Below, in pieces: positions 22,175 to 50,418 of a stretch of DNA of 64,000 bases; within the stretch, counting starts at the first letter, position 1; the number at the start of each line of letters is the position of its first letter. The stretch is taken from positions 89,590 to 153,589 of the forward strand of contig MHEE01000012.1 of assembly GCA_001805105.1 (NCBI GenBank). The letters are read 5' to 3'. The notes under the pieces are model-generated. The model ran no database searches. It saw only the letters and a list, made by a program, of their open reading frames with translations, and had not been told where the DNA came from. The stretch is from Nitrospirae bacterium GWF2_44_13. GTDB taxonomy: Bacteria > Nitrospirota > Thermodesulfovibrionia > Thermodesulfovibrionales > UBA1546. A program made the translations under genes and the position numbers.

Positions 22175-22182
22175 ATCACAAA

Positions 22183-22217
22183 AGTTGAAAGTTAAGAGTT
22201 AAAAGTGAAGAGTTTAA
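22183..22217. repeat. Five tandem heptads (AGTTRAR) between glmS and glmU, first arm
   Basis: Perfect 7-bp register: AGTTGAA, AGTTAAG, AGTTAAA, AGTGAAG, AGTTTAA. A second arm of four heptads in inverted orientation (TTTTGAA x3 and CTTTGAA, i.e. TTCAAAR on minus) lies at 22254-22281, inside the 3' end of glmU. The whole element spans about 22183-22281. Confidence 0.8.
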
Positions 22218-22230
22218 TAAAAATTTCATG

Positions 22231-23643
22231 CTACTTTCTCTTTTTCTTGTTAATTTTGAATTTTGAATTTTGAACTTTGAACTGTCTTTTAATCGCCCAT
22301 CCCTCTATGTTCTTTTGGTCTGCCCTGCTGACTGAAAGCGACATGGCAGGAACGCACTTGGTAATGGTAGAGCCTGCGCCTATGTATGCGCCTTTCCCCA
22401 CTCTTACAGGCGCAACCAACTGTGTATCGCTGCCTATAAAAGCGCCGTCTTCTATTGTTGTCCTGCTCTTCTTTTTGCCGTCATAATTGCATGTTATGGT
22501 GCCTGCTCCGATATTGACGCCCTTTCCTATAGAGGCGTCACCAAGGTAACTGAGATGAGACGCCTTGGTCCTGTCGCCTATCAAAGATTTTTTTATCTCA
22601 ACAAAATTCCCTATCTTTGTCTCGGATCCTATATCGCATCCCGGCCTGATATGGGCAAAAGGGCCGACCACTGCCTTTGCCCTTACAATAGAACCCTCAA
22701 TCACGGTAGAGTCCTTCACCACAACTCCATCTTTAATAACGCTGTCAACAATGCGCACATTCGGATATATAGTGCATCCGCTGCCTATTTCTGTCCTGCC
22801 TTCAAGACAGACATCAGGATAAATAATTGTATTTTTTCCTATAACAACATTGCCTGAGATAAAGATTGAATCGTGGTCAAGAAATGTAACGCCTTTTTTA
22901 ATCCAGGCATTAGCCAGTCTTTCCCTGAATATTTTCCGCGCCTTCATCAGTTCGGATGCTGTATTAACTCCCATCATCTCATCCTCAGAGCCTATACAGC
23001 AGGCGTTCATTTTATAGCCCTTGTTTCCGGCGATGCCGATAATATCCGTAAGATAATACTCGCCCTTTGCAATATTTAGCGGAATTTCTTTAAGCAAGGA
23101 TAAGACGCCGGATTCTATAGCATATACTCCGCTGTTAACCTCAGTGATTTTTCTCTGAGCCTCTGTCGCATCCTTATCTTCTACAATTGCGTTAATACAA
23201 CTATTTCTGTCCCTTAATATTCTTCCGTATGAAGCAGGATTTGTTGCAGCAAAAGAGATGAGAGAAATATGATTCCTGCCTGTTTGGTGCAGACTCAGAA
23301 ATTTCTTCAATGTCTCTGATGTAATGAGCGGGACGTCGCCGTTTAATACGAGTATTGTGCCTCTGAAATCTTTCAGCAATGTCTTTGCCCTTAAAAGCGC
23401 ATCGCCTGTTCCGTTGGGTTTTTTCTGTACTGCGAATAAAATATTCCCAGGCTTTATTGACTTTTTAATCTCTTTGAAGTGTTTTCCAACCACAGCAACG
23501 ATTCTAAGTGGCCTTAGCCTCTCAGCGGAATCAATCACACACTGCAGCATAGGTTTATCAAAAATCCCATGCAGAACCTTCGGCAAGGGAGAACCCATCC
23601 TTTCACCGCGTCCTGCCGCAAGGATAACCACTGCAAGTTTCAT
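22231..23643 (-). CDS. glmU: Bifunctional GlcNAc-1-P uridyltransferase / GlcN-1-P acetyltransferase
   Basis: Makes UDP-GlcNAc, the precursor of peptidoglycan and lipid A. The N-terminal pyrophosphorylase domain has LAAGRGERMGSPLPKVLHGI and the later VLNGDVPLIT. The C-terminal half is a left-handed beta-helix of hexapeptide repeats, with the acetyltransferase segment around SHLSYLGDASIGKGVNIGAGTITCNYDG. The last 17 residues (about 454-470, starting QFKVQNSKFK) are not part of the fold; they are encoded by a tandem heptad DNA repeat that reads through in frame. The stop is followed by more heptads. It overlaps the DUF502 gene by 4 bp. Confidence 0.94.
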   Translation of the reverse strand: MKLAVVILAAGRGERMGSPLPKVLHGIFDKPMLQCVIDSAERLRPLRIVAVVGKHFKEIKKSIKPGNILFAVQKKPNGTGDALLRAKTLLKDFRGTILVLNGDVPLITSETLKKFLSLHQTGRNHISLISFAATNPASYGRILRDRNSCINAIVEDKDATEAQRKITEVNSGVYAIESGVLSLLKEIPLNIAKGEYYLTDIIGIAGNKGYKMNACCIGSEDEMMGVNTASELMKARKIFRERLANAWIKKGVTFLDHDSIFISGNVVIGKNTIIYPDVCLEGRTEIGSGCTIYPNVRIVDSVIKDGVVVKDSTVIEGSIVRAKAVVGPFAHIRPGCDIGSETKIGNFVEIKKSLIGDRTKASHLSYLGDASIGKGVNIGAGTITCNYDGKKKSRTTIEDGAFIGSDTQLVAPVRVGKGAYIGAGSTITKCVPAMSLSVSRADQKNIEGWAIKRQFKVQNSKFKINKKKRK

Positions 23644-24257: not shown

Positions 24258-24305
24258 CTCGTTATTTATAATAACGCCACAGGCTTTTATATTGCAAGAG
24301 CCTAC

Positions 24306-24388
24306 ATGATGCATGATACAGGATACAAGATACAGGATAAAGGGAAAAAATATTCAATAAATATCGTGCATCTTGCATCGTGCATCCT
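24306..24388. repeat. Inverted heptad-repeat element between DUF502 gene and yebC
   Basis: Left arm, five heptads in register at 24306-24340: ATGATGC, ATGATAC, AGGATAC, AAGATAC, AGGATAA. Right arm, four heptads of the same consensus on the opposite strand at 24361-24388: ATATCGT, GCATCTT, GCATCGT, GCATCCT. The 20-bp spacer is AT-rich. The arms match the consensus ANGATRC but are not exact complements, so any hairpin would be imperfect. Confidence 0.82.
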
Positions 24389-49194: not shown

Positions 49195-50418
49195 ATGAAT
49201 TTCAGCGGCATAAAAAAAATCCTTGTCATAAAACTCCGCCATATCGGCGATGTCCTTCTGAGTGTTCCTGTATTCAGGGCGTTAAGGGAAAATTTTCCGG
49301 AGGCGCATATTGCCGCCCTCGTGAATTCAGGCACGGAAGAGGCCTTAGATTCAAGCCCGTTTATTAATGAGATAATAGTCTTTGACCGAGGCATCAAGAA
49401 AATGAATTTGCTCCAAAAATATACAAAAGAAATATCAGTCCTAAGAATGATACGAAGGAAAGGCTTTGATATGGCAGTTGACCTCACGGGCGGTGACAGG
49501 GCTGCGATAACATCCTTTGTCTCAGGTGCGGCATACAGGCTTGCGCATGACACCAGAGGGGGTTTCGGGGGGAAAAAATACCTGTATACCCACCTTGCCG
49601 CAAGAAATGATAATCAGCACACAGTGCTGCAAAACCTTGATATCGTAAGGCAGTTCGGCATCAAATCAGACAATCTCTCCGTGGATATATCTATTCCTGA
49701 AAGTGCGAGAATATTCGCTAAAAATATCGTTAGCCACAATAGAACAGATAGTGTTGCTCCTGTAGTCCATGTCCATCCGACATCAAGATGGCTTTTCAAA
49801 TGCTGGAGGGATGAATACATGGCAGAGGTTATAAACTGGATGACCGGAAAAGGCATAACTGTAATTGTTACATCGGCTCCTGACAAACGGGAAATGGAAA
49901 AGGCAAAGAGAATTTTATCTTTGGTATATGGGGGGGGAACTTTAGGGGACAGTCCCAGATTTACGGGCGAAGCCCCCGTAATTGACGGGGCAGGCTCCGA
50001 ATCGGGACTGTCCCTGCGACTAGGAGTAGTTGACCTGTGTGGTAAAACAAACATTAAACAGCTTGCTGCTATATCAGAAGTCTCAGATTTATTCTTTGGC
50101 GTAGACTCCGCTCCTATGCATATTGCCGCAGCAGTCGGCACGCCTGTCGTTGCCCTATTCGGGCCAAGCGGAGCCTTTCACTGGGGGCCCTGGGATAATG
50201 AAAGCTCAAAGTTAAGCATTAAGAGTTTAGAGTTTAAAACTCCTTACCCTGAAAAAAGCGGGATACAGACATTTGGGATTCATACAGTTATTCAGCAAGA
50301 CTGGAAGTGCATTCCATGCGGTAAAGATGGATGTGACGGAACCAAAATCAGCAGGTGCCTCGAGGAGATAAAAACGGAAGAGGTTATAAATATTTTAAAA
50401 GGCAAACTGAATATATAA
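49195..50418 (+). CDS. GT9 family heptosyltransferase-like glycosyltransferase, with two repeat insertions
   Basis: Glycosyltransferase of the LPS inner core type. ILVIKLRHIGDVLLSVPVFRALRENFPEAHIAALVN starts the donor fold, and LFFGVDSAPMHIAAAVGTPVVALFGPSGAFHWGPW is the GT9 signature near the C-terminus, with a Cys-rich CIPCGKDGCDG. Unusually, 407 residues against 346-373 for the three other GT9 genes here: a palindromic element at about 49945-50015 is translated in frame (GDSPRFTGEAPVIDGAGSES), and four heptad repeats at 50210-50237 encode KLSIKSLEFK. The frame stays open through both and the conserved motifs continue after each. First gene of the glycan cluster. Confidence 0.88.
   Translation: MNFSGIKKILVIKLRHIGDVLLSVPVFRALRENFPEAHIAALVNSGTEEALDSSPFINEIIVFDRGIKKMNLLQKYTKEISVLRMIRRKGFDMAVDLTGGDRAAITSFVSGAAYRLAHDTRGGFGGKKYLYTHLAARNDNQHTVLQNLDIVRQFGIKSDNLSVDISIPESARIFAKNIVSHNRTDSVAPVVHVHPTSRWLFKCWRDEYMAEVINWMTGKGITVIVTSAPDKREMEKAKRILSLVYGGGTLGDSPRFTGEAPVIDGAGSESGLSLRLGVVDLCGKTNIKQLAAISEVSDLFFGVDSAPMHIAAAVGTPVVALFGPSGAFHWGPWDNESSKLSIKSLEFKTPYPEKSGIQTFGIHTVIQQDWKCIPCGKDGCDGTKISRCLEEIKTEEVINILKGKLNI
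49945..50015. repeat. In-frame palindromic element inside a GT9 gene
   Basis: Terminal arms GGGACAGTCCC (49946-49956) and GGGACTGTCCC (50004-50014) are reverse complements. Between them lies a smaller hairpin TTACGGG (49961-49967)/CCCGTAA (49975-49981). About 70 bp long, it lies where other GT9 genes have only a short loop between the sheet strand and the DLCGKT-like segment. The eight-G run just before it (49930-49937) is part of the same odd region. Confidence 0.8.
50210..50237. repeat. Four tandem heptads inside the GT9 gene
   Basis: AGTTAAG, CATTAAG, AGTTTAG, AGTTTAA in exact 7-bp register, the same word family as the array at 22183-22217. It is followed by AACTC, which completes the palindrome GAGTTTAAAACTC. 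Translated as part of the glycosyltransferase. Confidence 0.75.

Follow-up and report, generated by a model that had tools for sequence, protein, structure and literature searches.

A family of short palindromic repeats lies in frame within a GT9 glycosyltransferase gene and other enzyme genes of Nitrospirota

This study focused on an insert in a GT9 glycosyltransferase gene of Nitrospirae bacterium GWF2_44_13, within a window of 64,000 nucleotides (the whole stretch of DNA that was analysed). The insert was confirmed to be one copy of a short palindromic repeat family that is dispersed in genomes. With a probability of roughly 0.87, these are short, non-autonomous mobile palindromes whose landing in frame is tolerated, and which in this case enlarged a loop of the GT9 protein. 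Copies would jump, or be copied, both within a genome and from one genome to another, among uncultured Nitrospirota and certain other phyla; an in-frame landing in a surface loop would add about 16-25 residues, mainly hydrophilic and unstructured, that are tolerated, and copies that break genes would be lost. Coordinates are collected in Table 1.

Table 1. Features of the window copy and its host gene, and related loci from other genomes
Feature	Position or locus	Strand	Basis
GT9 gene, putative LPS heptosyltransferase III, host of the insert	49195..50418	+	407 aa; Pfam PF01075, TIGR02201
Palindromic element copy	49945..50015 (69-bp core 49946-50014)	+	fold energies; covariance model R1, E 3.7e-9
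Predicted peptide from the element, GDSPRFTGEAPVIDGAGSESGLSL	residues 251-274 of GT9		
5' arm GGGACAGTCCCAGATTTACGG	49946..49966	+	family consensus, 152 copies
3' arm CGAATCGGGACTGTCCC	49998..50014	+	family consensus
Inner hairpin CCCCGTAATTGACGGGG, tip subtype	49974..49990	+	seen only inside such elements, 41 genomes
Site B, variable loop from helix 231-244 to strand 278-280, different repeats in relatives	49927..50025	+	
GT9 orthologs with loops filled in frame by unrelated repeats	L018, L019, L021, L023, L024, L028		
mqnC orthologs with loops filled in frame by unrelated repeats	L245-L250		
Hairpin-in-hairpin composites	L126 1899 and 3352; L128 5714; L135 6348; L150 7504; L155; L159; L164; L179; L212 7483		

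The preliminary description, made from the letters of the window, had placed a palindromic element in frame inside an intact glycosyltransferase reading frame, and both this and its coordinates were correct. The element is bounded by the 11-bp arms GGGACAGTCCC (49946-49956) and GGGACTGTCCC (50004-50014); the window held no further arm matches at up to one mismatch, and none of 100 shuffles gave as many. The 73-nt stretch folded as RNA at -44 kcal/mol, where shuffles averaged -24.95 (z -6.2); as DNA it folded at -24.9 (z -6.8). An inner hairpin had also been described and is indeed present, but it was rejected as an independent repeat, being found solely within elements of this type.

The host reading frame has 407 codons and no internal stop. 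Its protein matched the Pfam GT9 family with an E-value of 3e-32 and TIGR02201 with 218.8 bits (cut-off 170.2), and is best named as a putative LPS heptosyltransferase III. As had been noticed earlier, it is longer than the remaining three GT9 proteins of the window (373, 373 and 346 aa), and GT9 motifs resume after the insert: homology (VDLCGKT...) is picked up again at about residue 278, the Pfam match covers residues 278-341, and sequence matches to PDB entry 3tov span residues 6-234 and 282-337, with just a short loop separating them. An AlphaFold2 model built from 7 sequences (mean pLDDT 81.7, pTM 0.84) placed a helix at 231-244, coil with pLDDT below 50 at 248-274, and a strand at 278-280; the nearest solved structure was the Veillonella GT9 protein 3tov (Z 35.1, rmsd 3.0, 338 residues aligned). 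A GT9 domain and a GT-B fold were both found for the protein (Pfam, TIGR02201, model and 3tov). Since the model runs from helix through coil to strand, and the homology to 3tov is nearly continuous across the insert, the insert is predicted to be disordered and to lie at the protein surface, in a loop that joins two secondary structure elements within a sound GT-B fold; the loop, which is exposed and belongs to the C-terminal domain, would be lengthened by it. Between G000 (the genome that holds the window), G003, G005 and G007, dN/dS was 0.23-0.40 upstream of the insert and 0.13-0.28 in two separate segments downstream of it. The low values 3' of the insert indicate that the downstream segment is functioning protein; purifying selection appears to act on both flanks, and the enzyme has very probably stayed functional with its insert in place. 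The insert would then be read as peptide, and FTGEAPVIDGAGSESGLSLR is an example of a tryptic peptide across it.

The covariance model counted exactly four copies in G000 (1.99 Mb in 18 contigs): in the GT9 gene (C12), in mqnC (C14), in cobB (C1) and in an intergenic region (C15). A genome search for the arms, as had been proposed, thus found them at three other places, so that they are not unique to GT9, and all three genic copies are in frame. The family consensus, from 152 copies, is (A)AG-GGGACTGTCCC(A/G)GATTTACGG-tip-CGTAGAATCGGGACTGTCCC-CG. Elements are about 48-76 bp long, with the outer arm ends most commonly 58 or 48 bp apart, and the flanks have A at -2 (0.82), G at -1 (0.90), mixed bases at -4 and -3, and CG downstream. 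Members were found in 39 of 176 genomes of the same order, patchily by genus and family, with E-values down to 1e-16 and up to about 30 matches listed per genome, some of which may be copies counted on both strands, as in G000. When 84,980 genomes were scanned for one exact arm, the matches listed came from Nitrospirae, Deltaproteobacteria, Candidatus Poribacteria, Omnitrophota and Desantisbacteria, among others, and for the most part from groundwater; a pattern requiring the exact full element was too strict for finding family members. Most of the genomes compared are MAGs.

At 66 of 69 positions the window copy is identical to one carried by the GT9 ortholog of G015, from another genus. The G015 copy lies at a different loop (site A, codon 183) with its orientation reversed, and the two genes share only 72.3% DNA and 71.2% protein identity. 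This is not what inheritance in place would give, and near-identical copies at non-homologous sites are good evidence, at the level of sequence, for mobility. The arms are almost invariant, and the tip sequences vary yet stay paired: mean tip folding energy was -6.08, compared with -4.14 (sd 0.44) for chimeric tips in which halves of different tips were joined, and 0 of 300 were that low. A position-wise count of pairing in the tips gave no signal, as a bulge misled the count, and the RNAalifold covariation term for the arms was almost nil because these are nearly invariant. As the tips keep folding despite their changed sequence, the hairpin itself is apparently under selection, and the element may be recognised as a folded strand. 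The most likely candidate for moving it would be a hairpin-recognising enzyme supplied in trans; no mobilising enzyme was found near copies in the fetched loci. Movement is likely to occur as single-stranded DNA, given that the tips keep pairing while their sequence changes and that other palindromes are nested in them. The loops that hold the elements are hypervariable, and neither a clean empty site nor a duplicated target could be made out there.

In-frame copies were not confined to the window gene. Among GT9 orthologs, they occur at site B in G005, G003, G010 and G015, and in three loci from other genomes (L152, L187, L241); at site A in G015; and at site C in G005, G003 and L241. More generally, 63 of 156 unique copies lie within a reading frame having at least 90 codons before and at least 60 after the element, and for the 132 copies with enough flank the share in such long frames was 46%, against 47% for positions drawn at random from that DNA. 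Genes are not avoided by the element. When 40 copy-bearing frames were scanned, 37 had Pfam matches (E ≤0.001), with the element mostly within or between domains and frequently inside a single domain match. The host families comprise MqnC, CobB, CobT-CobS, PurL, RsmE, nitrogenase component 1, Tgt, QueA, FAD-dependent oxidase/SdhA-like proteins, P-type ATPases, ResB, Lnt, TilS, phosphomannomutase, aminotransferase, Nnr, MnmG, CobQ and CbiD; NCBIfam names, where run, were consistent with these assignments. Four of the six frames are free of stops in the common length forms. Among 58-bp copies in long frames, the hydrophobic frame (GTVPILRL...) was used by 1 of 32, and the other open frames by 20, 7 and 4; its near absence suggests selection for inserted peptides that are loop-like. 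A cobalamin gene cluster (L099; G002:C30, 1-6267) carries four copies, some of which, in cbiD and in the linker joining cbiE and cbiT, are in frame, and a single cbiD at another locus (L216) holds two.

The same loops are also filled by unrelated repeats. At site B of GT9, G007 and G025 carry CGTCACT heptamers and G011 carries AGCTATC-type repeats; site A has a palindrome of the CCCCC...GGGGG type in G002, G007 and G012, and an CATTCCGAG repeat in G035; all of these are in frame. For the MqnC loop, G000, G005 and G002 have the palindrome and G001, G003, G004, G006, G007 and G008 have other repeats, and in more distant genomes the loop is short and native; the CobB and CbiD loops follow the same pattern. 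A reading of mqnC, cobB, cbiD and GT9 site C as empty sites failed, since close relatives hold other repeats there. At about ten places the element tips contain nested palindromes, of the CCCCCTT and CATTGCGAG types, from at least two other families. One nested composite is in frame in CobB (L306 736-823; cobB of G002, L260), where it reads GTVPVTPPCLPL..GRLGGVS..VVESG. Heptamer tandem arrays (AAAAGTT, AATTTTG, TACAGGA, ATCGTGC) occur elsewhere in the window, at 22180-22281 and 24303-24386, and are of the same repeat class as the loop fillers of relatives. The preliminary description had seen a new protein loop created by selfish DNA: insertion of a mobile repeat is borne out, but the loop was already there, variable, and has only been enlarged, and in relatives it contains the same DNA element in several cases and unrelated repeats in some. 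Tentatively, and with less than even confidence, surface loops of core enzymes in these lineages could be recurrent landing pads at which several unrelated palindrome and heptamer families replace one another or nest, from genus to genus and in equivalent loops of given genes, linked by insertion that targets hairpin tips. If so, hairpin-borne DNA would be a standing supplier of new protein loops and not a rare accident.

Other origins for the insert were considered. That it represents ordinary low-complexity variation in a fast-evolving linker, with a palindrome formed by chance, is negligibly probable; the loop is hypervariable, and relatives have heptamer repeats or short native loops there, but chance is refuted by the recurrence of the element, with three more copies in its own genome, hundreds elsewhere, E-values to 1e-16, and 0 of 100 shuffles. 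An accidental landing of a REP or REPIN spread by a RAYT (Y1 HUH) transposase, in line with the REP-like ends proposed earlier, is unlikely. Two short inverted palindromic arms around a variable spacer are REPIN-like, and Y1_Tnp genes are present in 30 of 41 relatives; against this, a Y1_Tnp family search of the element's own genome, where a look for a REP-associated transposase had been suggested, gave no match, no RAYT was found in element-bearing loci, and the arm (at up to one mismatch) occurred in 0 of 50 RAYT neighbourhoods representing a subset of the RAYT genes of relatives. The flanks carry (A)AG on one side and CG on the opposite side, with no GTAG, GGAG or CGTC tag, and the suggested REP origin was not upheld.

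It is possible, if rather doubtful, that the insert is a MITE belonging to a DDE-type insertion sequence whose terminal inverted repeats are GGGGACTGTCCC and whose autonomous form is rare or has been lost. Terminal inverted repeats, the absence of coding capacity, and a patchy distribution over phyla would all fit, but in more than 140 fetched loci no arm pair surrounded a transposase gene, and arms lying 110-260 bp apart turned out to belong to nested palindromes, to adjacent copies or to fragments rather than to a DDE parent. It is also quite improbable that the insert was retained because it is useful (through changed specificity, interaction, or hairpin regulation at the RNA level) and not just tolerated. 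Many species have inserts at corresponding sites, as for mqnC in G000, G005, G002, G015 and G037, and GT9 site C is filled across two families; however, close relatives differ at a site in sequence, orientation, length and even repeat family, and such varying content at one site matches the expectation for neutral filling of a tolerant loop.

Tolerated in-frame landing of a mobile palindrome, the preferred reading, has counterparts in known systems. Rickettsia palindromic elements (RPE) are dispersed palindromes found in frame inside conserved protein genes as well as between genes, and are tolerated (PMC2229807, PMC3733652). The Nitrospirota family likewise combines in-frame palindromes in conserved genes with intergenic copies, and the parallel drawn earlier, of a dispersed mobile palindrome in frame in another lineage, is good as an analogy; the published descriptions set the two apart, RPE being 105-146 bp long with Rickettsia hosts, and the present family 48-76 bp and in several phyla. 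GTAG/CGTC REPs (BMC Genomics 2013) are intragenic palindromes of several species that code for 20-30 aa, often more than one per gene (PMC3733652). They too are short palindromes inside genes, but the present elements lack the GTAG/CGTC tag and a RAYT neighbour, and lie in long reading frames at the frequency of random positions, whereas GTAG/CGTC REPs are mostly intergenic. ERIC/RU-1, YPAL/RU-2 and the 107-bp Correia element are enterobacterial or neisserial MITEs fused in frame to reading frames (PMC2229807), and so resemble the family as non-autonomous hairpins joined in frame with ORFs; they are longer, have other sequences and hosts, and some show a target duplication that was not seen here. 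The multicopy heptanucleotide elements of Geobacter metallireducens, which are repeats in and between genes (PMC2700814), resemble the loop-filling heptamers of relatives, but differ in sequence and do not belong to the palindrome family. A literature search, with subscription journals mostly outside its coverage, found no description of this family or its arm sequence. Translated palindromes are, then, already known outside Rickettsia, and the family would be a new one of a known kind. What is new is the family itself, together with its occurrence in several phyla, the fact that genes are not avoided, and the refilling of the same loops by unrelated repeats.

These inserts have practical consequences for annotation, as such segments mislead alignments and gene models, and the many natural pairs of genes with and without an element offer a means of measuring the cost of an inserted loop. 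The pathways affected include enzymes of cobalamin, menaquinone, queuosine and purine synthesis, and nitrogenase. Earlier discussion centred on Rickettsia, a parasite, so that weak selection could account for translated palindromes; finding them often in several phyla of bacteria presumed to be free-living weakens that explanation. Selfish DNA that is regularly translated within essential enzymes would represent a rare, observable path from non-coding sequence to protein.
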